NCBI GenBank assembly: GCA_012523135.1
Contig: JAAYJD010000189.1
Coordinates: 1-40,181, forward strand
DNA from: Clostridiaceae bacterium
GTDB lineage: Bacteria > Bacillota > Clostridia > Saccharofermentanales > UBA5734
Length of the DNA: 40,181 bases
Direction of reading: 5' to 3'
Shown: in pieces, positions 2,804 to 33,084 of the stretch
How positions within the stretch are numbered: the stretch's first letter is position 1
How the letters are laid out: every line of letters begins with the position of its first letter
The notes under the pieces: model-generated
Seen by the model: only the letters and a program-made list of their open reading frames with translations
Databases searched by the model: none
What the model was told of the DNA's origin: nothing
Position numbers and translations under genes: made by a program

Positions 2804-3989
2804 CCAGATCGATGATTCCTGAAATCTCCTCGGTCACTTCAACCGTACCCAAATAGGCGCCGCTTTCATCGCGAACCGCGTAGTAGCGCACCAGGTCGAG
2901 ACGGCTGCCCTTGCGAACAGGCACAATCGCCTGGTCTTTTTTGCCCGTGCGGAAGGCTTCGATCAGCTGACGGATGCGGGGAACCAGCTGGGGCGGATGG
3001 CACAGGAACACATTGCGCCCGATGATCGTCCGGGTGCGGGCAAACACCTGGTGCTTGCCCTCGGAGTAGTACTGGACCACATCGTCGCGGTCGATAAAGG
3101 TCAGGTCGGTCGGCAGCGTGTTGAGCATCGCCGTCAGCTGCGCGCTGGTCAGGCGGCCGCTGGGCAGGCTGATCTTGCCTTCTTCGCCCGGCGCGCTTTG
3201 CTTGATTGATCCGCTCTGCTTTTCCAGCCAGACCGCCGCGTCGGAATTGGACGCGCCTGCAATGCCCTTGTTGAAGACCAGGCCGATCTGCGCGCTCTCC
3301 TGGGCCGCCAGGATCCAGTCCGCTTCCGTCATGCAGCCGAACAGCATCGGCATGAGGATTTCGTTTTCCTGCCGGACCATGCGTTCCACCTGGGTCAGCA
3401 GGCGATCCGCGATCAGGCGGATCCGCTTGGGCTGGAGCGGCCGCTCGCTGATGGCCCCGTCGAGCAGTTTCATGAGCTCGCGGATGATCTGGTCGACGCC
3501 CCACATGACTTTGGCCGGAGCGGTCAGGCCCGCTCGTTCCAGGTAGGGGAAAAAGAGGTTTTCCTTGCGGTCGTAGTGCTTGCCAAGCGCACTGAACTCC
3601 GTTACAGCATCCTGGAGATTGAGCCTATCCTTTTCCGATCCGGTCGCCAGGCAGGCCGCCAGGTCCGGCTTGAGGCGTTGCTCGAGAAACGCGAGCAGAC
3701 CCTCGTTCTCGCCGGCGATGACGCGGGCCGGATGGCCGTCCGCCTGGTCGGGGCGCACCGCAGCGCCGGCGGCCAGATGGCCCAGCACCAGGTCGGTGTG
3801 CAGGGCGCTGGCCCGCTGGATTTCCTCGACGGTTACACCGCGCGCAACCAGCAGGTTTTCTGCCTGGGCCAACTCCAGCACGGATACGTCGCCAAAGCCG
3901 GTCTGGAATGTGTGCCTGACCTGCTCGAGCGGCGAGCCGTCGATCAGGTCCCGCAGATGTTTTGCCAATGCCTCTATCCGGTCGTTCAT
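2790..3989 (-). CDS. DUF438 / hemerythrin HHE / PAS domain protein
   Basis: The 399-residue protein has the standard three-part layout of its family. An N-terminal DUF438 domain lies at about 1-75. A hemerythrin-like four-helix region lies at about 85-240, with HYDRKENLFFPYLE at 138-151 and QENEILMP at 207-214 that would supply di-iron ligands. A C-terminal PAS domain lies at about 285-390 and includes the CHPPQLVPRIR segment typical of this group. Such proteins are cytosolic and are thought to sense or scavenge oxygen or nitric oxide through the di-iron site and a PAS cofactor, but no enzyme activity is established. The start ATG has AGGAGA upstream. The neighbouring Rrf2 regulator and the AAGTGT-N3-ACACTT palindrome 80 bases upstream suggest redox control. 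The helix-3 segment reads MWGVDQ, where many hemerythrins have a His. Confidence 0.88.
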   Translation of the reverse strand: MNDRIEALAKHLRDLIDGSPLEQVRHTFQTGFGDVSVLELAQAENLLVARGVTVEEIQRASALHTDLVLGHLAAGAAVRPDQADGHPARVIAGENEGLLAFLEQRLKPDLAACLATGSEKDRLNLQDAVTEFSALGKHYDRKENLFFPYLERAGLTAPAKVMWGVDQIIRELMKLLDGAISERPLQPKRIRLIADRLLTQVERMVRQENEILMPMLFGCMTEADWILAAQESAQIGLVFNKGIAGASNSDAAVWLEKQSGSIKQSAPGEEGKISLPSGRLTSAQLTAMLNTLPTDLTFIDRDDVVQYYSEGKHQVFARTRTIIGRNVFLCHPPQLVPRIRQLIEAFRTGKKDQAIVPVRKGSRLDLVRYYAVRDESGAYLGTVEVTEEISGIIDLVTGK

Positions 3990-4068
3990 ACCTGTCTCCT
4001 GTTCAGTTTTTCCGCTGGTCCGGGCTGCTTATCCGGCCGCACAACCGCCTGAAAGGGCTATCTGCTCA

Positions 4069-4083
4069 AAGTGTACCACACTT
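4069..4083. promoter_or_regulatory. Palindrome AAGTGT-N3-ACACTT, possible operator
   Basis: A perfect 6-3-6 inverted repeat lies between the divergent DUF438/hemerythrin gene (start 3989) and the TIM-barrel gene (start 4207). Its size and position suit a dimeric regulator acting on the minus-strand gene, possibly the Rrf2 protein encoded next door. No protein-site pairing can be proven from sequence. Confidence 0.35.
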
Positions 4084-4124
4084 GACAGGTTGCCTGAAGA
4101 TATGGCCGGCGCCGGCCGGGCCTG

Positions 4125-4152
4125 TTCACACCCGATCTGTTGGTGCTAAGAT
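4125..4152 (+). promoter_or_regulatory. Promoter with extended -10 for the TIM-barrel gene
   Basis: TTCACA at 4125-4130 and TAAGAT at 4147-4152 are 16 bases apart, and a TGC immediately precedes the -10 box (extended -10 type). The start codon follows 54 bases later. Confidence 0.45.
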
Positions 4153-4206
4153 AGAGACATCAAGCCAGCCTGCTTTGCCGATAAGGCAGCAGAAACGGAG
4201 GCCACC

Positions 4207-6132
4207 ATGGATAAACTGACCACCCTGCATGTCATGCCGCTGCTGCCAGGCCACGAAGCCGACCTGGCCGCAGACGCTCTGGAACTGGTTCAGTCGGGCG
4301 TCGCCACTGCGGTTGCCTGCAGCATGACCCTGGTGCCGGAAGGCAATCCGCCGGAAAACAAGGCGAAAATCCTCGGAGACCGCTTTACGGCTTTTCGCAG
4401 GGCGTACCAGGGCGATCGCGCGCAGCTGGGCATTCTGGCTCAGGCGACGATCGGGCACGGCTATGTGCCCGACGAGCCCGCCCCATTTCAGCAGATCGTG
4501 CGGCCAGACGGCAGCCTGGCCTACCAGATGTGCCCGCTCGACCCCGCCTTCCAGGCCTACATCCGCGACACCATCCGCCATCTGGCCGCGCTGCGCCCGG
4601 CCTTCATCATGATCGACGACGATTTCCGTCTGCTGACCGGCCGCAACGGCTGTTTTTGCCCGCTGCACCTGAACGAAACCGGCAAGCGGCTGGGCCGGAG
4701 CTTGACCCGTCCTGAACTGGTCCAGCTGCTGGCAGACGAGCAGGTCGCCCGGCTCTACGATACCGTTTTGCTCGATTCGCTGCTGCAGCTGGCCGGGGTG
4801 ATCCGGGACGCGATGGATGAAACGGATCCGGCACTGCCCGGCAGCTTCTGCACCTGCTATGGCGATGTCCGCCATGCCGGCCCAATCGCGGGCAGATTGG
4901 CCGGCCAAGGCCAGCCGCGCGTGGTCCGGATCAACAACGCCCGCTACCTGAGCCCGGAGATGCGCTCGTTCCCGATCCGGATGTACCACGGTGCGGCCCA
5001 GATTGCCAGCCTTGACGGCGACATCCGGGCGCTCGCGGAGACGGATACGTGCCCGCAAAACCGCTACAGCACGGCCGCCGCCCTGCTCCATGCCCACTAC
5101 ACCGGCTCGATTCTCGAGGGCTGCCACGGCGCCAAACACTGGATCACCCGGACGCGCGCCTACCAGCCGGCCAGCGGAGCGGCCTATCGCGCCATCCTTG
5201 GCCGGTACCAAGCCTTCTACGAGACCCTTTACCAGGCTGTCCAGATAAGCCAACCGGACGGGTACGCCGCGGCGGCCCTGCCGTCGGCTTCGTTTTTCAA
5301 CGCGGCGCCGCGCCACGGCGACCGGTGCGGCTCCGAAAAGACCTGGGGTGCCCTGCTCGGGGTGCTGGGCTTGCCCTGCAACTTTATCCGGATGCCAAAG
5401 CTTCCAGTCATGATGACAGGAGAAGATGTCGACCTGTTCTCTGATCAGGATCTGGGCGAGCTTGTTGAAACCGGCCTGGTCCTGGAAGGGTCGGCGGCCG
5501 AAAAGCTCTGCCGGCGCGGATTTTCTGCCGGGATCGGTGTGGTCGCCAAGCCGTACCAGGGGCCGCGCGTCTCCGCCGAGCGGTGGGGTCAGCGGATGCT
5601 GGGGCCTGACACGACCTATACGCGCTTACTGCCGCTGAGCCAGGCAACGCGCGTGCACGCGACCTTGCTGCACCGCAAGTCGGGCGTGCATGAGTCGTTT
5701 TCCGAGATCGGGCCGGCCGCCACGTCGTTCACAAACGACGCGGGCGGACGGGTGGCTGTGCTTGCGGCCAGCTTCGGCACCAGCAACAAGCTGTCATCGT
5801 TCGGCTTTTTCGACGCGGACAGGAAGCTGGAACTGCTGGAATTGCTATCGTTCGTCTGCGGCCGCCCTGTCGCGTTTCATTATCCGGGCGACGCGGAAAT
5901 ATACCTCAAGCTGCGCCGCTTTCCGGATGGCCGTTACCTGCTCGCCCTGTTCAACCTTGGCCACGATCCGCTGGACACCGTGCCGCTGGCTTCCCCGCTT
6001 CAGATCAGCCGCGTCGAGCAGATCACGCCGGATGGGCAATGGCAACCGGTCGCACTGGAGAGCGGGGTTTTGCTGACTTCGCTCGCGCCAGCCGAACCCA
6101 AGGTGTTTTGCATCACGGCTGCAGACCGGTAA
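4207..6132 (+). CDS. Predicted TIM-barrel glycoside-hydrolase-like protein of unknown family
   Basis: The 641-residue protein has no signal peptide and should be cytosolic. The N-terminal half looks like a beta/alpha barrel: repeated short hydrophobic strands, the strand-end motif FIMIDDDFRL (133-142) with three consecutive aspartates, and GCFCPLH (148-154), reminiscent of the Cys-rich loop after strand 4 in GH42-like enzymes. The middle (about 370-520) has a class-I-amidotransferase-like alpha/beta look (EDVDLFSDQDLGELVETG), as in the trimerisation domain of GH42-type enzymes. The C-terminus is a beta domain (RFPDGRYLLALFNLG). This arrangement points to a carbohydrate-active enzyme, but neither the catalytic acids nor the substrate can be assigned. 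The ATG at 4207 is preceded by GGAGG at 4197-4201. It ends convergent with, and overlaps by 20 bases, the toroid protein gene. Confidence is high that the gene is real and low for function. Confidence 0.55.
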   Translation: MDKLTTLHVMPLLPGHEADLAADALELVQSGVATAVACSMTLVPEGNPPENKAKILGDRFTAFRRAYQGDRAQLGILAQATIGHGYVPDEPAPFQQIVRPDGSLAYQMCPLDPAFQAYIRDTIRHLAALRPAFIMIDDDFRLLTGRNGCFCPLHLNETGKRLGRSLTRPELVQLLADEQVARLYDTVLLDSLLQLAGVIRDAMDETDPALPGSFCTCYGDVRHAGPIAGRLAGQGQPRVVRINNARYLSPEMRSFPIRMYHGAAQIASLDGDIRALAETDTCPQNRYSTAAALLHAHYTGSILEGCHGAKHWITRTRAYQPASGAAYRAILGRYQAFYETLYQAVQISQPDGYAAAALPSASFFNAAPRHGDRCGSEKTWGALLGVLGLPCNFIRMPKLPVMMTGEDVDLFSDQDLGELVETGLVLEGSAAEKLCRRGFSAGIGVVAKPYQGPRVSAERWGQRMLGPDTTYTRLLPLSQATRVHATLLHRKSGVHESFSEIGPAATSFTNDAGGRVAVLAASFGTSNKLSSFGFFDADRKLELLELLSFVCGRPVAFHYPGDAEIYLKLRRFPDGRYLLALFNLGHDPLDTVPLASPLQISRVEQITPDGQWQPVALESGVLLTSLAPAEPKVFCITAADR

Positions 6133-9235: not shown

Positions 9236-9244
9236 CATGCCGCA

Positions 9245-9273
9245 TTGCAAGGCCAGGCACCGCTTGCTACAAT
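9245..9273 (+). promoter_or_regulatory. Sigma-A-type promoter for the VOC gene
   Basis: TTGCAA at 9245-9250 and TACAAT at 9268-9273 are separated by 17 bases, with TGC just before the -10 box. The GTG start follows 47 bases later, so the VOC gene can be transcribed apart from the sigma/anti-sigma pair. Confidence 0.6.
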
Positions 9274-9320
9274 CAACCCAGCGACCGGTCACGAAGTCCG
9301 TGACAAGAAAGAGGCAATCT

Positions 9321-10076
9321 GTGATCAAGGAACTCAACCACATCGGTATCCGGGCAGGCGATTTCGATTATGCGCTCGCGTTTTACCAGCAAACACTGGG
9401 CGGCACGATCATCCGCGACAGCCGCTCGCTGGACGGCAAAAGCAGTTTCGTCTACATCCAGCTTGGCGACGGCGTCATCGAGCTTTTAAGCAGCAAACCG
9501 GGCGAAACCAACCTGGGGCTGCAGCATGTCGCCTTTCTCGTCAACGAGGACCTGAATCGTGTTTACGAGGCGTTGCTGGCGCAAGGGCTTGTCTTCACCG
9601 TTCAACCTCGTCTGGCCGGTTCCGGCAATGGTTACCTGGCCTTTTTCCGCGAACCCGGCGGCGCCGTTTTCGAACTGATCCAGCGCGAGGAGAACATTCG
9701 CATCCCGGGTCTCAAAAACGATGTCCTGCTGGCTTTCGCTTCCAGCACCATCCAGGTCCCCCCCGAATCCTTTGATCGCTGCGCCGCCTTTTACCGCGAC
9801 ACCATGGAATTCAGCTCCGGGCCGGTCCTCGAGACGGCCCAGGGCCGGGTACAGCATTTTCGGCACGGCCGTGATGCGATCGAACTGGCTTTGGGGGCGG
9901 CCGACCAGCCGCTGAACCGGCTGACCTTCCAGGTTGCGAGCTGTTCGGCCCTGCGCGACCGTCTGCTGGAACGAGGTCTATCCTGCACATTGCGCCGGGA
10001 TCCCGGCGCGGAAACGGTCCTCGACGCGGTCGGGCCGGACGGCGTCCGGCTCCGTTTCGTGGAAGCGCCGGTCTAG
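9321..10076 (+). CDS. VOC (glyoxalase/bleomycin-resistance) superfamily protein, two domains
   Basis: The protein has 251 residues and two vicinal-oxygen-chelate domains. The first (about 3-122) carries the complete metal-ligand set of glyoxalase-I-like enzymes: His7, Glu54, His69 and Glu118. The motifs are LNHIGIRAGD, DGVIELL, LQHVAFLV and GAVFELI. It should bind a divalent metal and act on a small hydroxy/keto, thiol-adduct or antibiotic-like substrate. The second (about 136-249) keeps the fold pattern (DRCAAFYRDTMEF, AIELALG, LTFQV) but has lost most ligands, so it is probably structural. GTG at 9321 is chosen because AAAGAGG at 9308-9314 is well placed and the first strand starts immediately; the frame is open from 9237. 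It ends 3 bases before the convergent Phd-Uma2 gene. The physiological substrate is unknown. Confidence 0.82.
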   Translation: MIKELNHIGIRAGDFDYALAFYQQTLGGTIIRDSRSLDGKSSFVYIQLGDGVIELLSSKPGETNLGLQHVAFLVNEDLNRVYEALLAQGLVFTVQPRLAGSGNGYLAFFREPGGAVFELIQREENIRIPGLKNDVLLAFASSTIQVPPESFDRCAAFYRDTMEFSSGPVLETAQGRVQHFRHGRDAIELALGAADQPLNRLTFQVASCSALRDRLLERGLSCTLRRDPGAETVLDAVGPDGVRLRFVEAPV

Positions 10077-10079
10077 CGG

Positions 10080-10796
10080 TCAGTCTGGAAACAGCTCAGG
10101 CAGGCTGACCTGAAGACCCGGGAAACAGGCCGACTCAAGGACCGCTGAACCGACAAATGGCCGGCAATCGGCAATATCGCCGTCGGCAAACGTATACAGG
10201 AGGGCTGTTTTCCGCTCCGGGTCGATCAGCCAGTATTCCCGGACCCCGGTTTGCATGTACAAGTCCAGCTTTTTCAACATGTCCTTGCGCCGGGTCGAGG
10301 GCGAGCTCACTTCCACGACCAGGGCCGGCACGCCGTGGTATTTGCCTTGGGCATCGATTTTGTCGCGGTCGCAGATAACCAGAATGTCCGGCTGGACCAC
10401 GTTGATGTTCGTTTCGCTTTTGAACAGCGTCACATCGAACGGCGCGAACAAAGGCCGGCAGTCTTTACCTTTAAACCAGTTGTAAAACAGGCCATACAGT
10501 TCGCTTAAGGCCGACTGGTGCGCATACATCGGTGACGCGAGCAGGTAAACCTCGCCGTCGATCAGCTCATAACGTTCTTCGCTGGTTTCGACCAGTTCGA
10601 GGTACGCTTCGTAGGACATTTTTTCCGGGACCCGCTCGATTTCAGCTGCGCTGTTCCTGAGCAGAAGCGGCTCGCTGAAGGGCACCAGCCGGGCCACGGC
10701 CTTTCCGTTCTTGGTGATCGTCACCGGATCGTTCTGCAACGCCTGCTTGAGGTATTTGCCGAAGCTGTTTTTAATTTCTGTCGCCGATACATACAC
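10080..10796 (-). CDS. Fusion of Phd/YefM antitoxin domain with Uma2-family nuclease domain
   Basis: The protein has 238 residues in two parts. Residues 1-41 (SATEIKNSFGKYLKQAL, then PVTITKNGKAVARLVPF) are a Phd/YefM antitoxin DNA-binding and dimerisation domain. Residues 59-238 are a Uma2 (DUF820) PD-(D/E)XK-fold domain with YELIDGEV (76-83), QPDILV (135-140), LVVEVSSPSTRRKDMLKK (159-176) and YWLIDPERK, so the proposed active-site acids Asp137 and Glu162 are present. Uma2 proteins are predicted nucleases of unknown role. The fusion puts an autorepressor-type domain on a putative nuclease in one chain. GGGAGG at 10805-10810 favours GTG at 10796 over the open-frame GTG at 10805, which would overlap it. 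The promoter region carries three AACAGC direct repeats. No separate toxin gene is adjacent. Confidence 0.85.
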   Translation of the reverse strand: MYVSATEIKNSFGKYLKQALQNDPVTITKNGKAVARLVPFSEPLLLRNSAAEIERVPEKMSYEAYLELVETSEERYELIDGEVYLLASPMYAHQSALSELYGLFYNWFKGKDCRPLFAPFDVTLFKSETNINVVQPDILVICDRDKIDAQGKYHGVPALVVEVSSPSTRRKDMLKKLDLYMQTGVREYWLIDPERKTALLYTFADGDIADCRPFVGSAVLESACFPGLQVSLPELFPD

Positions 10797-10824
10797 GGTC
10801 AACACCTCCCGTTCTTTTGGCTAT

Positions 10825-10885
10825 ATTATATCATTGTTTAGCTGTTCTAAAAATAATTCAGCTGTTTATTTTTAAAATGGCTGTT
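10825..10885 (-). promoter_or_regulatory. Promoter and three direct repeats upstream of the Phd-Uma2 gene
   Basis: Read on the minus strand, a perfect TATAAT lies at 10830-10825, 29 bases before the GTG start. The hexamer AACAGC occurs at 10846-10841, 10866-10861 and 10885-10880, spaced 20 and 19 bases, close to two helical turns. One copy lies in the spacer between the -10 box and a weak -35 region. This phased array is a plausible operator for the Phd domain. On the plus strand, TATAAT at 10918-10923 may serve the divergent fucosidase gene, though its -35 is poor. Confidence 0.5.
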
Positions 10886-10960
10886 TTGATGTCCTGTACG
10901 TCCGCGCCGTCAGCCGTTATAATGGGTCCAGGCGCATAGCCGCTTGGGGAGGTGTCTGAT

Positions 10961-12157
10961 ATGCAGGAGCAATTCGGACTGTTTGTCCACTGGGGTTTGT
11001 ACGCCCTGACGGCGTACCAGGAACAGGTGCGTGCCCGGTTGCGTTTGCCGCGCGCCGACTACCACCGCCTGATGGCTGCATTCAACCCGGTCCGCTACGA
11101 CCCGGACGCCTGGGTGGATCTGGCCTGGCAGGCGGGCATGCGCTATATCTTCTTCACCGCCAAGCACCACGACGGCTTCTGCCTCTGGGACACGCGCCAG
11201 ACGGATTTCAACATCATGAACACGCCCTACAAGCGCGATGTGCTGCGCCTGCTGGCCGACGCCTGTGATCGCCGGGGCATGAAATTGTCCCTGTACTATT
11301 CGATCCCGGACTGGAACCACCCCAACGCCTACAATCCGGCCAGCTCGCACCAGTGCCCGCCCGAGGCCGGCGACCAGCCGGACACCGTCCGCTACCGCGC
11401 GTTCCTCAAGGAGCAGATCCGGGAACTGCTCACCGGGTACGGGCCGGTCTATACCTTGTTCTGGGATATTCCGCCGCACATCGCCGACCCGGAGATCAAC
11501 GCCTTCGTACGCGCTTTGCAGCCCGGCATCTTGATCAACGACCGTGGCTACGACCCCGGCGACTTTTCGACGCCGGAACGCCAGGTGCCGGACGGAGCCT
11601 GGTTCACGCGGCCGACGGAAGCCTGCCAGTCGGTCGGCCGGCAAAGCTGGGGCTACCGCTTCCAGGAAGACTACTACACGACCCGCTACCTCGCAAGCAG
11701 CATCGACAAAGTGATGGCCATGGGCGGCAGCTACCTGCTGAACGTCGGCCCGATGGCGGACGGCCGCATCGACCCGGTCTCGCAGGAAAAAGTGCGTACG
11801 GTCGGCGACTGGTACACCCGCGTGGCCGAATCTCTGACCGGGATCGAACCGGTTGCGGGAAAGCTGGTCGACAGCTCCGGCAACCAGCCGTTTTTGGCCG
11901 TAGCCCGCGGCAGCACCTGGTATTTGCATTTTTACGATGGCCTGAGCGCCGGCGGTGTCACGCTCAAGCCGGTTCAGGAAAAACCCAAAGAAGTGATCCT
12001 GCTCAACAACGGCCAGCCTGTCGCATACGCCGTCACCACGCTGCCGACCTCCTGGCACTGGGACACGCAGGAACTCGATCAGCCCTGCCTGCACCTGTTC
12101 AACCTGCCGGCGGAATCGTTCTGCCACGAACCGGTCGTGATCAAGATGATCTGGTGA
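10961..12157 (+). CDS. Alpha-L-fucosidase, glycoside hydrolase family 29
   Basis: The 398-residue enzyme hydrolyses terminal alpha-linked L-fucose from glycans with retention of configuration. Family motifs are clear: FGLFVHWG (5-12), YDPDAWVDLAWQAGMRY (46-62), KHHDGFCLWDT (68-78) and YYSIPDW. The strand YTLFWDI carries the probable nucleophile Asp169, and Glu206 in STPERQVP is a candidate acid/base. LLNVGPMADG closes the barrel. A short C-terminal beta domain follows from about 330. There is no signal peptide, so it probably acts on imported oligosaccharides in the cytosol. GGGGAGG at 10946-10952 supports ATG 10961; a GTG at 10952 would overlap it. The end overlaps the minus-strand DUF6429 gene by 17 bases. 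In this family the acid/base position varies, so Glu206 is tentative. Confidence 0.9.
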   Translation: MQEQFGLFVHWGLYALTAYQEQVRARLRLPRADYHRLMAAFNPVRYDPDAWVDLAWQAGMRYIFFTAKHHDGFCLWDTRQTDFNIMNTPYKRDVLRLLADACDRRGMKLSLYYSIPDWNHPNAYNPASSHQCPPEAGDQPDTVRYRAFLKEQIRELLTGYGPVYTLFWDIPPHIADPEINAFVRALQPGILINDRGYDPGDFSTPERQVPDGAWFTRPTEACQSVGRQSWGYRFQEDYYTTRYLASSIDKVMAMGGSYLLNVGPMADGRIDPVSQEKVRTVGDWYTRVAESLTGIEPVAGKLVDSSGNQPFLAVARGSTWYLHFYDGLSAGGVTLKPVQEKPKEVILLNNGQPVAYAVTTLPTSWHWDTQELDQPCLHLFNLPAESFCHEPVVIKMIW

Positions 12158-15173: not shown

Positions 15174-16220
15174 TCATCTTTTTGCTGCCAGCAAGCGCGC
15201 CAGCTCGTCAAAATCCGCGAACGACCGGATCGGAACCCCGCGGACTGTCAGCAAGGCCACGAAGGCTGCCTGGTGCTGGTCGGCGACCGCCAGGAAACCG
15301 GGAACATCACCCGGATCGAAAGCGCCGACCAGGTCCGGCAAGGCTTGGGCCGACACGCCGGTTCCCCTGAGCACGTCCTCGATCTCGCGCGTGATCTCAT
15401 GGGCGGCGAACAAGGCGGTCACCAGGTCGCCGGTCTCGCAGCCGTGGCGGATCTTGTTGTAGAAATTGATCAGCTCCTCGTAGAAACCGGCCAGCTGTTC
15501 GCGAAAGTCATGCGGCTTGATGCAGGTTTTTTCCTGCGCGGCCAGCAGCGCCTCCGTGTTGCAAACGAGCTGGTGCGCGGCGGCCTTGATCGCCTGGCTG
15601 TCGCAGCTGGACACCAGGACATCGTAAAGGACGGAAAAGTCGGTTGGCACCAGCGCCATGGCCAGCAGTTCACCCTTAAGCTTGCCCCGGCCGCGCTTGA
15701 CTGTTTCCCGGTTGAGCAGGGCCAGGGCATGAGTCAGGGCAAACAGCAGGTCCATCCCGTACGCCCGGACCTGGGTCAGATCCTGCGCCTGGCTTTGCCA
15801 GAACTGCAGCCGGTAGACCCGGTCGAAGACGGTACGCGCCTTCCTGACAAACGCGTGTTTGTCGCTGACATCGAGCGCGTGCGCCTTGAGGGCTTCGAAG
15901 CGCTGGCGGTCCTGGTCGCTGCCGACGTAGATCACCTGGCCCTCGGTGAGAATCGAGGTGATGCGCTCCTCGTGGTTGGCGATCCGCGTCAGCCGTTCCC
16001 AGGAAATCGCCCAGTAGTCGTAGCCGATGCCGTCGATGATGAAGGTCATCGCCAGATCATGGCCGCGCGGCGTGTTGACCACGAAATACAAATCCAGGTC
16101 CGACTTGCTGTGGGTGTCCTGGTAGATGGTCGAGCCCATGATGACCACAACGGCCACGTCGTCCCGGTAGGCACGCTGGATCGTTTCGATCAGAAGGTCT
16201 GCCGCTATCAATCGATCCAT
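15174..16220 (-). CDS. Nucleotidyltransferase-fold protein (aminoglycoside-nucleotidyltransferase-like)
   Basis: The 348-residue protein begins with a nucleotidyltransferase domain: VVIMGSTIYQDTHSKSDLDL gives the G-S motif (29-30) and the D-x-D metal-binding pair (Asp41, Asp43). The remaining 230 residues are helical, like the C-terminal domain of 6-adenylyltransferases and related small-molecule or protein AMPylators. It should transfer a nucleotide from an NTP to an unknown hydroxyl. There is no signal peptide. It lies 16 bases after the YkgJ-type gene and 29 bases before the toroid gene in the same operon. Antibiotic modification is possible for this fold, but operon context makes a biosynthetic or regulatory role as likely. 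Confidence 0.8.
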   Translation of the reverse strand: MDRLIAADLLIETIQRAYRDDVAVVVIMGSTIYQDTHSKSDLDLYFVVNTPRGHDLAMTFIIDGIGYDYWAISWERLTRIANHEERITSILTEGQVIYVGSDQDRQRFEALKAHALDVSDKHAFVRKARTVFDRVYRLQFWQSQAQDLTQVRAYGMDLLFALTHALALLNRETVKRGRGKLKGELLAMALVPTDFSVLYDVLVSSCDSQAIKAAAHQLVCNTEALLAAQEKTCIKPHDFREQLAGFYEELINFYNKIRHGCETGDLVTALFAAHEITREIEDVLRGTGVSAQALPDLVGAFDPGDVPGFLAVADQHQAAFVALLTVRGVPIRSFADFDELARLLAAKR

Positions 16221-30106: not shown

Positions 30107-31579
30107 TCAGGTCGGCCGCCAGCCCCTGGGGTTGGCCAGGACCGCGTCGTTGAACGCGTCCAGGCGCAGGCGCAGCTCCTCCGCCTTTTGCGGATGGAGC
30201 CGGCGCACATCGTAGGACTCATCCCGGTCGCAGGTCAAGTCGAACAGGAAGGGATGGATCCGCATGCCCCGGTAGGCCGCGTTCTCGCTGCCCGCCGCCT
30301 GAACATACTTGAAATGGTCGCGGGAACGCGCGGCATAGCCTTGCCGGGCGTGGACCGGAACCAGCGAATTGACATAGAACAGCACGTCGTGCGGGCTCTG
30401 GTCGGTCTGGTCCAGCAGCAGAGGGAGCAGGCTTCGCCCGTCGATCTCGCGGTCTTGCGGCAGCTTAGCGCCGGTCAGCTCGCAAAATGTGGGCAGGAAG
30501 TCGATGTTCATCGCCATTTCCCGGATGCGCCGGCCAGATAGCGTGCCTTGCCAAAAGCAGATCGTCGGAACGACCTGGCCGCCGTCGAAGAAATTGCCTT
30601 TGCGGCCCCTGTGGCCTCCGGGCGACCCCTGGTGCCAGGGACCGTTGTCCGAGGTGAAAACGATCAGGGTTTTCTCCAGCAGATCCTTTTCTTTCAGAAC
30701 ATCCAGCAACTGGCCGATGCCGTGGTCGAACTCCTGGATGCAGTCGCCGTAGACCCCGCCCCGGGAGGTGCCGGCAAACGATTCGCCGCTGCTGAGCGGG
30801 TGGTGCGGCCAGGGCGACGCGTAATAGGCGAAAAAAGGTTCGGCCGCCTGGCCCCGGATAAAGGCAAACAGCTCCGTGTTCAGGTATTCGGTGATCCGGC
30901 GCTGGTCCAGCGGGGCCTTGACGGCGATCTCGCGGTTGCGCCAGAAATGGTACGGGTACATGTCGTTGGAATAATGCGCGCCAAAGAAGGTCTCGAAGCC
31001 CTTGTCGTTGGGCAGGTGCGGGCTGCGATCGCCCAGATGCCATTTGCCGAACATGCCGGTCCGGTAACCCCGGGCCCGCAGCAGCTCCGCGATGGTCAAT
31101 TCATCTTCCAGGATACCGCTGACTGGCATTTCGGTGCGGCGTCGCCGGTTCATCTCGTGGACACGCTGAACAAAAGCGTCTGTCACCTGACCGTCGCGTT
31201 CGTCCGCTTCGTTTTCGTAGCCCTGCGGGGTGATCTGGTCCCGGTCCGGCTCGATGGTCGGAAAGAAGACATGTTCGATCAGGCCGCGGCAAGGATAGCG
31301 GCCGGTCAGCAGGCCAAACCGGCTGGGCGTGCAGACCGGGCTGGAGGCATAGCAGTTCTCCATAACGATGCCGTCACGGGCCAGGCGGTCGAGGTGGGGG
31401 GTCCGGATCGCCTGCGAGCCGAAGCAGGACAGGTCGCCCCAGCCCAGATCGTCCATCAGGATCATGACGATGTTGGGTGCGGCGGCCCGCTCGGCGGCCG
31501 TCATGGGTTGGATGCCATCCAGGCATTGGCGGTGCTCCGCGAGGTGCTTGTTCTGCATGGCTTGCTCTATCTTGCTCAT
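30107..31579 (-). CDS. Sulfatase (formylglycine-dependent, S1 type)
   Basis: The 490-residue protein has the sulfatase signature C-T-P-S-R (Cys83 to Arg87, in SPVCTPSRFGLLTGR), where Cys is converted to formylglycine. The first metal-binding strand is MILMDDLGWGD (Asp43, Asp44), and TSDNGPWHQG supplies the later metal pair. It should release sulfate from a sulfated sugar or aryl ester. There is no signal peptide, so substrate would be imported. The gene overlaps the upstream sulfatase gene by ATGA (31579-31576), indicating coupled translation. Cys-type sulfatases in anaerobes need a radical-SAM maturase (anSME), which is not in the window. The substrate is unknown. Confidence 0.93.
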   Translation of the reverse strand: MSKIEQAMQNKHLAEHRQCLDGIQPMTAAERAAAPNIVMILMDDLGWGDLSCFGSQAIRTPHLDRLARDGIVMENCYASSPVCTPSRFGLLTGRYPCRGLIEHVFFPTIEPDRDQITPQGYENEADERDGQVTDAFVQRVHEMNRRRRTEMPVSGILEDELTIAELLRARGYRTGMFGKWHLGDRSPHLPNDKGFETFFGAHYSNDMYPYHFWRNREIAVKAPLDQRRITEYLNTELFAFIRGQAAEPFFAYYASPWPHHPLSSGESFAGTSRGGVYGDCIQEFDHGIGQLLDVLKEKDLLEKTLIVFTSDNGPWHQGSPGGHRGRKGNFFDGGQVVPTICFWQGTLSGRRIREMAMNIDFLPTFCELTGAKLPQDREIDGRSLLPLLLDQTDQSPHDVLFYVNSLVPVHARQGYAARSRDHFKYVQAAGSENAAYRGMRIHPFLFDLTCDRDESYDVRRLHPQKAEELRLRLDAFNDAVLANPRGWRPT

Positions 31580-33060
31580 AAGGGTCCTCCTCCCGGCTTT
31601 CCGCTCCCGACCCGCGCCGCGTAAAAAGGCGACTGCAGGTGCGGCCGGCCCTGCTGGCAGACCAGCTGGCCGTTTTCGACCAGCCCGGCTTGCCGCTGAT
31701 CCAGTTCGCGGATCAGCAACTGGCGCCAGGCCGCGATTTCATCCTGCTGTTCCGGCTGGGCCGCCAAATCGTGCTGTTCATGTGGATCGGCAGCCAGATC
31801 GAAAAACTGCTCGTGGTCCGCGCGGGGAAACCAGATGTATTTCCGACCCCCGTCCGTCAGGCCCTGCATCTCCTGTTCCTCGCTGTAGCAGGTGCTGTGC
31901 TCGAAGTGGACGACCCGGACCGGATCCGGCGCTTCGGCCAGCAGCGGCCGCAGGCTTTGGCCGTCCAGGCCAGGCGGCAGCGGCAAGCCCGCCAGGTCCA
32001 GCAGGGTCGGCATGATGTCGGTCAGCGTGACCGCCGTACCGATGGTGTGCCGGATGCCGGTTCGCATCGATTTGGGCAGCATCAGGACCAGGGGGATGTG
32101 CGCCGACCCTTCATAGGCATAGGTTTTGCGCCACAGGTGGTGGTCGCCGAGCATGTCGCCGTGGTCCGAGGTGAACAGGACGATCGTGCTGTCGAACAGG
32201 CCTTGGCGGCGCATCGCGTTGAACAGCTTGCCGATCTGGTGGTCGACGTGGCTGACCGAGCCGTAATAGCCGGCCCGGGCGCGTCTGGTTTCCGTCTCGC
32301 TGCGCTGTCCCCGCCAGGCGTCCGGGTCCGCCGCGTCTTCCGGCCGGTCGTTGACCCCGGCCCAGTCCCCGATAACAGGGGCCGGCAGCAGGTCCCGCTG
32401 ACGGTCGTACATGTCGAAGTAGTAAGGGGGCGGGTCGTAGGGCGAATGCGGCCGGGCAAAGGAGGTCATCAGGAAAAATGGCCGGGTGGGATCCCGCTCC
32501 TGGAGAAATTTGACCGACTGGCTGGCCGTCCAATTGCTCGGGTGTAAAAATTCCGGCAGCGCATAGGGCCGGGCTATCCAGGAGTTCCAGCCGATCCCGT
32601 GGTCGGACAGATCGTAATCGCCGGTCTTGTTGGCGTCGAACCATTGCTTGTAATCCGAGACAAATCCGGGGGTCGCAACGCGGCCCGATTCATCCAGCAC
32701 GGTGTTATGGAATCCGTTCAAGGCCCGCTGTGGGTAAAAATGCATTTTACCGACGCCCTGGGTGTGGTAACCGTGACGGGCGAACACGCCGGGCAGCGTC
32801 TCGTCAAAGCCGGTTCCCATCTCGCCCTGGCCGGGCCCCATGCCAAGCACACCGGTATGCCAGGGGCTGAGGCCGCTGATCAGGCAGGCCCGGGCCGGGA
32901 TGCAGGACGGCGACGGGGTGTAAGCATGACGGAAAACGCTGCCGTTTCGGGCCAGAAAATCGATGTTGGGCGTCTCGATCACCGGGTTGTTCGCATAACC
33001 CAGGCAATCCCAGCGCAGTTGATCCATCATGATCAGCAAAACATTCGGACGTTGCTCCAT
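31576..33060 (-). CDS. Sulfatase (formylglycine-dependent, S1 type)
   Basis: The 494-residue protein has the signature C-I-P-A-R (Cys53 to Arg57, in SPSCIPARACLISG). The first metal strand is LLIMMDQLRWD (Asp13), and FTSDHGDMLGDHHLWRK supplies the second metal pair and a substrate-side His. The CxPAR form is a valid target for formylglycine conversion. The pattern resembles iduronate-sulfatase-like or heparan/choline-sulfatase-like members, though the substrate is not decided. ATG 33060 is chosen over the open-frame start at 33081 because GAGGGTGAT lies just upstream. It follows the ZIP transporter by 24 bases and is coupled to the next sulfatase through a 4-base overlap. It has no signal peptide. 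Confidence 0.93.
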   Translation of the reverse strand: MEQRPNVLLIMMDQLRWDCLGYANNPVIETPNIDFLARNGSVFRHAYTPSPSCIPARACLISGLSPWHTGVLGMGPGQGEMGTGFDETLPGVFARHGYHTQGVGKMHFYPQRALNGFHNTVLDESGRVATPGFVSDYKQWFDANKTGDYDLSDHGIGWNSWIARPYALPEFLHPSNWTASQSVKFLQERDPTRPFFLMTSFARPHSPYDPPPYYFDMYDRQRDLLPAPVIGDWAGVNDRPEDAADPDAWRGQRSETETRRARAGYYGSVSHVDHQIGKLFNAMRRQGLFDSTIVLFTSDHGDMLGDHHLWRKTYAYEGSAHIPLVLMLPKSMRTGIRHTIGTAVTLTDIMPTLLDLAGLPLPPGLDGQSLRPLLAEAPDPVRVVHFEHSTCYSEEQEMQGLTDGGRKYIWFPRADHEQFFDLAADPHEQHDLAAQPEQQDEIAAWRQLLIRELDQRQAGLVENGQLVCQQGRPHLQSPFYAARVGSGKPGGGPL

Positions 33061-33084
33061 GGCGATCACCCTCCCAGCCACCCC

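Follow-up and report, generated by a model that had tools for sequence, protein, structure and literature searches.

Here, we describe a widespread group of proteins in which a Phd/YefM antitoxin-type DNA-binding domain and a Uma2 domain are joined in a single polypeptide, one member of which is encoded in the window (the whole stretch of DNA analysed, 40,181 nucleotides from a Clostridiaceae bacterium). With a probability of about 75%, we consider this gene to code for a self-repressed nuclease that resembles toxin-antitoxin (TA) systems in its regulation and has no separate partner. Autoregulation is strongly supported by sequence comparison, as palindromes recur at the promoters of these genes and, in each of nine genomes, form a single paired target. 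An earlier note, made from the letters of the window alone, had suggested an autoregulated nuclease as one of two roles for this protein; the promoter palindromes and the single paired target favor the autoregulatory half of that proposal, and the invariant PD...E...K residues are consistent with its nuclease half. The features discussed below are listed in Table 1.

Table 1. Features of the Phd-Uma2 fusion gene, its predicted promoter and its two neighbors, in positions of the window.
Feature	Position	Strand or orientation	Basis or remark
Phd-Uma2 fusion gene	10080..10796	-	238 aa; GTG start 10796, stop 10082-10080
Phd/YefM N-terminal DNA-binding and dimerization domain, residues 1-45	10662..10796	-	Pfam PF02604, NCBIfam TIGR01552, AF2, structural matches
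Flexible linker, residues 46-58	10623..10661	-	low pLDDT; length varies among homologues
Uma2 PD-(D/E)XK domain, residues about 58-238	10083..10622	-	Pfam PF05685, fold matches, conservation
Shine-Dalgarno GGGAGG	10805..10810	-	8 nt upstream of GTG at 10796
Predicted operator 3, ATAGCCAA	10817..10824	-	directly after -10 element
Predicted -10 TATAAT	10825..10830	-	between operators 2 and 3; by-eye comparison with L015 and L016 promoters
Predicted operator 2, ACAGCTAA	10838..10845	-	within promoter spacer
Presumed -35 TTTTTA, weak	10853-10848	-	17-nt spacer to TATAAT; between operators 1 and 2
Predicted operator 1, ACAGCTGA	10858..10865	-	same register as TTAGCTAA in L015
Glyoxalase-fold gene	9237..10076	convergent with fusion gene	neighbor
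Alpha-L-fucosidase gene	10952..12157	+, divergent from fusion gene	neighbor

The open reading frame lies exactly where it had first been read, and the GTG start codon originally proposed is also the better choice, since GGGAGG stands at a normal distance from it and since it agrees with the start of the aligned homologues, which is M-[KR]-V-x-[SA]-T-E. An alternative in-frame GTG at 10805 overlaps the Shine-Dalgarno sequence.

Profile matches to the two families occupy non-overlapping stretches of the fusion, with Pfam PhdYeFM_antitox (3e-10, 40.2 bits against a cut-off of 29.8) at residues 6-46 and Pfam Uma2 (4.5e-32, 111.3 bits against a cut-off of 27) at residues 66-234, both numbered from the GTG at 10805. 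The Uma2 profile is covered at positions 2-170 of 172. Of the 74 positions of the Phd/YefM profile, the match reaches position 45, and the linker and the Uma2 domain follow; of the antitoxin, the fusion thus has the DNA-binding half alone. According to both the profile match and the structural model, the C-terminal, toxin-neutralizing region of Phd/YefM proteins is absent from the fusion; the linker and the nuclease stand where a Phd antitoxin has this tail. The AlphaFold model has a mean pLDDT of 89 and contains two domains separated by a linker (pLDDT below 50 at residues 43-55), and its pTM of 0.72 gives moderate confidence in their mutual placement. In structural comparison, residues 1-42 matched the N-terminal domain of VapB46 with an rmsd of 1.0 A over 42 residues, P1 Phd and YefM being further matches of this domain, and residues 58-238 matched the Uma2 structures 6okh, 9y1l, 3ot2, and 1wdj (Z 20-25, rmsd 1.6-2.7), which gives the Uma2 part of the modeled fusion a restriction-endonuclease-like fold. 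The earlier description of the first 41 residues as a Phd/YefM domain is thus borne out by a match above the cut-off and by an antitoxin-domain fold at residues 1-42, and that of the remainder as a complete Uma2 domain with both acidic motifs holds as well, the profile being matched over nearly its full length and the residue numbers D137 and E162 being exact.

Uma2 proteins are abundant and have a predicted nuclease fold, and we know of neither an established function nor an activity assay for any of them. At the predicted catalytic positions, all 52 fusions and all 42 Uma2-only proteins compared have D137, E162, and K176, and E77, Q94, D121, P136, and S165 are likewise identical across the 52 fusions. 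The position of D121 is always Asp in the fusions, whereas Uma2-only proteins have either Asp (25 of 42) or Ala (17 of 42). The residues of the fusion fit the PD-EXX-K arrangement with a displaced Lys described by Feder and Bujnicki (PMC551604). Nuclease activity is predicted for the fusion, and the residue pattern PD...E...K agrees with it.

Side-by-side comparison of the regions upstream of fusion genes revealed a common palindrome, TTAGCTAA, usually present in two or three copies. Of the 36 regions in the derivation set, the window's among them, 23 contain the palindrome, for a total of 37 occurrences compared with 0.34 expected from dinucleotide shuffles, and two control palindromes did not occur at all in the same regions. 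Its core, TAGCTA, was found just upstream of 63 of 76 non-redundant fusion genes after correction of their starts: 28 of 35 in the derivation set, and 8 of 14 and 27 of 27 in two later sets that were independent of motif discovery. None of the 85 Uma2-only genes compared has TAGCTA upstream. Seven of the 13 fusions that lack it belong to one sub-clade, whose Phd domain starts with [TV]ITATELK or a close variant and whose promoters carry CGTACG or TCGCAC-like sites in place of TTAGCTAA, most clearly in L039 and L067. The members of this sub-clade are L039:2-625 (-), L067, L060, L065, L066, L069, and L032:1913-2686 (-). Similar N-termini also occur in two Phd-only genes, L009 and L012, and these likewise show CGTACG/TCGCAC-like sites (weakly in L012). 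Because the group is a single clade, this covariation of protein and operator counts as one event. Neither operator type was found at a few fusions, such as L058 and the second copy of L046. In addition, three ordinary Phd-PIN modules (L010, L011, and L049) have TTAGCTAA or ATAGCTAA upstream, with TTAGCTAA in L010 and L011. The presence of TTAGCTAA before Phd-PIN modules suggests that the operator may have arrived with the Phd domain, and such modules are possible sources of the DNA-binding half of the fusion.

In the window itself, the copies of the palindrome are degenerate. The three best sites have a P of about 0.0007 against shuffles of the same region. Their spacing relative to the start codon is that of the three sites in L015, a close relative, and in this register none of 20,000 shuffles reached their score. 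The degenerate triple occurs at one place in the 3.4-Mb genome of the window; as its pattern was drawn from the window itself, this result means only that a second place is absent. The promoter assignment rests on the relatives, since an automatic promoter consensus scan did not list the TATAAT/TTTTTA promoter. The repeats that the earlier note had mentioned upstream of the gene are real, and they are conserved in other species.

The pattern TTAGCTAA-N(5-24)-TTAGCTAA occurs once per genome in four genomes of 2.7-6.7 Mb, and a pair with a 9-nt gap once per genome in five others; in all nine, every exact pair lies just upstream of a fusion gene, and a reversed control pattern had no match in the genomes scanned. 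Genomes without an exact pair have sites that are more degenerate or spaced otherwise. One paired target per genome means that no regulon is visible. The single motif TTAGCTAA was also rarer than the reversed control AATCGATT in nine of nine genomes (0-39 versus 24-189 occurrences). Avoidance of TTAGCTAA as a sign of cleavage was considered and set aside, and this rarity is not used here, because the motif contains stop codons and the control is unfair in that respect.

A scan of species genomes yielded 35 loci, and the fusion is whole in most of them; isolates of Paenibacillus, Lentibacillus, and Cohnella are represented, and Lentibacillus sp. CBA3610 (L023) carries the same fusion on a complete chromosome. 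Two even samples were also considered, one of 391 genomes from the class and one of 398 from the phylum. Among the matches listed for the phylum sample, full-length fusions are present in 56 of 398 genomes with a total of 105 copies (both counted by hand from the listed rows, leaving out a shorter, lower-scoring match, G828), and up to five copies are found in one genome. The same two-domain order, for which the earlier note had suggested a search, recurs in many Bacillota genomes. Full-length and Uma2-only proteins are separated by a gap in score, the former ending at E 1e-81 and the latter beginning at about 1e-64 in the phylum sample, with a single contig-edge copy as the exception; the same gap appears in the class sample. 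Split pairs of Phd and Uma2 genes were found at none of 97 Uma2-only loci with flanks of up to about 4 kb.

A tree built from the Uma2 part places 52 fusions and six Uma2-only rows in a single supported group. Three of these rows lie deep among the fusions: L043 has a degraded N-terminal part, L036 is at a contig edge, and L034 shows no Phd part in the upstream stretch read and seems to have lost it. The other three, L070, L071, and L079, are found on a long branch that lies within the fusion group or next to it, and they may represent either a loss of Phd or the nearest unfused relatives. The tree table contains four changes between the fusion and Uma2-only labels, for which a single gain followed by a few losses is the simplest of the possible readings. 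Fusions of the same genus as the window (L007 and L008) are placed in parts of the tree different from that of the window gene, which suggests that the fusion may have moved horizontally. Full-length fusions were absent from the phage, plasmid, and viral-contig collections searched. The only plasmid place that covers more than 80% of the query was rejected as a fusion, being a weak match with 26% identity that begins at residue 24. On viral contigs (L084-L163), Uma2-only genes are common, and none of 80 loci has a detectable Phd gene in its flanks. With regard to selection, dN/dS is about 0.05-0.17 for the pairs with computable dS, and dN is low in the Phd and Uma2 parts alike; both domains are under purifying selection.

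As had been stated from the sequence, no toxin gene is adjacent to the fusion in the window, its neighbors being the glyoxalase-fold and fucosidase genes. Comparison of 48 fusion loci disclosed no conserved neighbor or partner gene, and other recurrent clusters of neighbors were rejected as partners since they proved to be shadow frames over the fusion gene or common chromosomal genes. The genome of the window contains one Uma2 gene, which is the fusion, and three other Phd matches.

The repression, dimerization, nucleic-acid cleavage, toxicity, trigger, and biological role that we infer for the fusion would fit together as follows. The protein would dimerize via its Phd domain, and the resulting dimer would occupy two or three palindromes of the TAGCTA type, which lie over and beside the promoter of its gene. 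The bound fusion would shut off its own synthesis and thereby keep a potentially harmful Uma2 nuclease scarce, and derepression would occur when the protein level or operator binding falls. Such a circuit would follow the logic of Phd/YefM autoregulation, except that a nuclease domain in cis takes the place of the tail and the partner toxin. Use as a TA-like stress or anti-phage effector appears the likeliest role, given that one half derives from an antitoxin, that Uma2 proteins have been suggested to be solo toxins (PMC2701414), and that there is a match to the PADLOC defense candidate PDC-S03 (3.8e-52), whose profile covers the Uma2 part only.

Several other explanations of the same protein have to be weighed against this self-repressed nuclease. 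The fusion could be a complete TA system in one polypeptide, in which the Phd part, alone or bound to the operator, inhibits Uma2 in cis until its loss by proteolysis activates the nuclease. Precedents exist among fused TA genes, for example YefM-YoeB, and a role in phage defense is known for some of the fused proteins (PMC11980606; CapRel, PMC10440598); the linker of the model appears flexible, and the PDC-S03 match points in the same direction. However, the neutralizing element of Phd antitoxins is precisely the C-terminal part that the fusion lacks, the modeled arrangement of the domains is of moderate confidence only, and the intact Uma2 genes of L070, L071, and L079 indicate that the Uma2 domain is tolerated without Phd. 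We thus regard inhibition in cis as conceivable and clearly on the less probable side. Going further in this direction, a captured Phd domain might, across Bacillota, both repress the gene and hold the nuclease inactive on the operator, such that loss of the operator complex derepresses and activates a TA-like single protein; if this rather doubtful idea were true, loss of the complex, for example during takeover of the chromosome by a phage, would switch the nuclease on.

The best-supported feature, the autoregulatory operator, would equally suit a protein that is a transcription factor only, with Uma2 as a sensor or oligomerization module devoid of catalysis, and non-catalytic PD-(D/E)XK folds are indeed known (PMC551604). 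Against this stand the invariance of the predicted catalytic residues in 52 fusions, selection on the Uma2 part as strong as that on the Phd part, and the single paired target per genome; such a role is therefore considered unlikely. The other role proposed in the earlier note was that of a regulator that targets the nuclease to DNA. Both domains come from DNA-acting families, and the scarcity of TTAGCTAA in nine genomes could hint at avoidance of sites that Phd brings Uma2 to cut, but that scarcity is confounded by stop codons, and in the nine genomes with an exact pair no paired operator was seen away from the promoter of the fusion gene, so that a guided nuclease would be held mostly at the gene that encodes it. 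The targeting proposal thus gained no support, and we judge it more improbable still. A chance in-frame join or an assembly artefact might be suspected because the draft genome behind the window is fragmented (366 contigs, 4.6% contamination), and split homologues had been named as the observation that would speak for it. Homologues are instead fused and conserved over their full length, they occur in isolates and on a complete chromosome as well as in more than fifty genomes of the phylum sample, and they are under purifying selection; an artefact is accordingly refuted, its probability being negligible. An inability of the Phd part to bind DNA had been named as a second counter-argument; this part retains its fold and is accompanied by a conserved operator.

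The self-repressed nuclease that we favor shares parts with several known systems. Like other members of the Uma2 family (COG4636/DUF820, PF05685), it has a complete domain of the same fold and a PD-EXX-K site with a displaced Lys, whereas the described family is usually solo and the fusion group adds an N-terminal Phd DNA-binding domain and an operator. In earlier work, Uma2 was considered a likely solo toxin that is rarely associated with antitoxins (PMC2701414). With P1 Phd, E. coli YefM, and the Phd-PIN modules found here (L003, L009, L010, L011, L013, and L049), the fusion has in common the DNA-binding and dimerization fold and, by comparison, palindromic sites over its own promoter. The palindromes to which E. 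coli YefM binds over its promoter have the core TGTACA (PMC4803016), as opposed to AGCT in the fusion operator. Type II modules of the Phd/YefM kind possess a partner toxin gene and a neutralizing C-terminus, both of which are missing here, and neither the neighbors in the window nor the 48 loci supplied the adjacent toxin or conserved partner by which such a module would be recognized.

Fused TA genes, such as YefM-YoeB and ParD-ParE, make antitoxin-effector fusions a known kind of protein (PMC11980606). The present group agrees with them in combining an antitoxin DNA-binding domain with an effector in one conserved polypeptide (105 copies in 56 of 398 genomes) and in its predicted binding to its own promoter. 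It differs in that its effector belongs, by prediction, to the PD-(D/E)XK nucleases and not to the RNases of the RelE/ParE fold, in that it retains just the DNA-binding half of the antitoxin, and in that it forms one widespread related group whereas the fused TA modules described are scattered small sets. Both domains and antitoxin-effector fusions are thus already known; the Phd-Uma2 join and its operator are apparently undescribed, as our literature search found no description of either, whereas domain databases may well list the architecture. A search with the operator motif returned unrelated papers only, with primers as the top match, and we found no paper naming the PDC-S03 family.

This group provides a regulatory handle on Uma2 proteins in the form of a defined palindromic operator, whose paired copies mark one target per genome with unusual clarity, and its natural relatives include proteins that have the DNA-binding domain and others that lack it; a single gene therefore suffices for direct tests of binding, repression, cleavage, and toxicity. 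Antitoxin-domain fusions, so far described for RNase toxins, thereby gain a PD-(D/E)XK effector, and the group, judging from the sequences, appears to represent an antitoxin that was cut down to its DNA-binding half and reused as a repressor in cis.

Some further observations concern individual loci. In Lentibacillus sediminis (L019), two fusion genes that are 89% identical are arranged in tandem (3010-3717 and 3804-4511), with three TAGCTA sites before the first and none before the second, as if they were co-transcribed. PDC-S03 is a phage-defense candidate, whereas the window fusion sits in a metabolic neighborhood and not in a defense island. Elsewhere in the window, the stretch 15174-16220 (-) has a weak match, far below the cut-off, to the MntA nucleotidyltransferase antitoxin. 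Two adjacent sulfatase genes are located at 30107-33081 (-), 18 kb from the alpha-L-fucosidase gene, and together with it they could serve the use of sulfated fucose-containing glycans.
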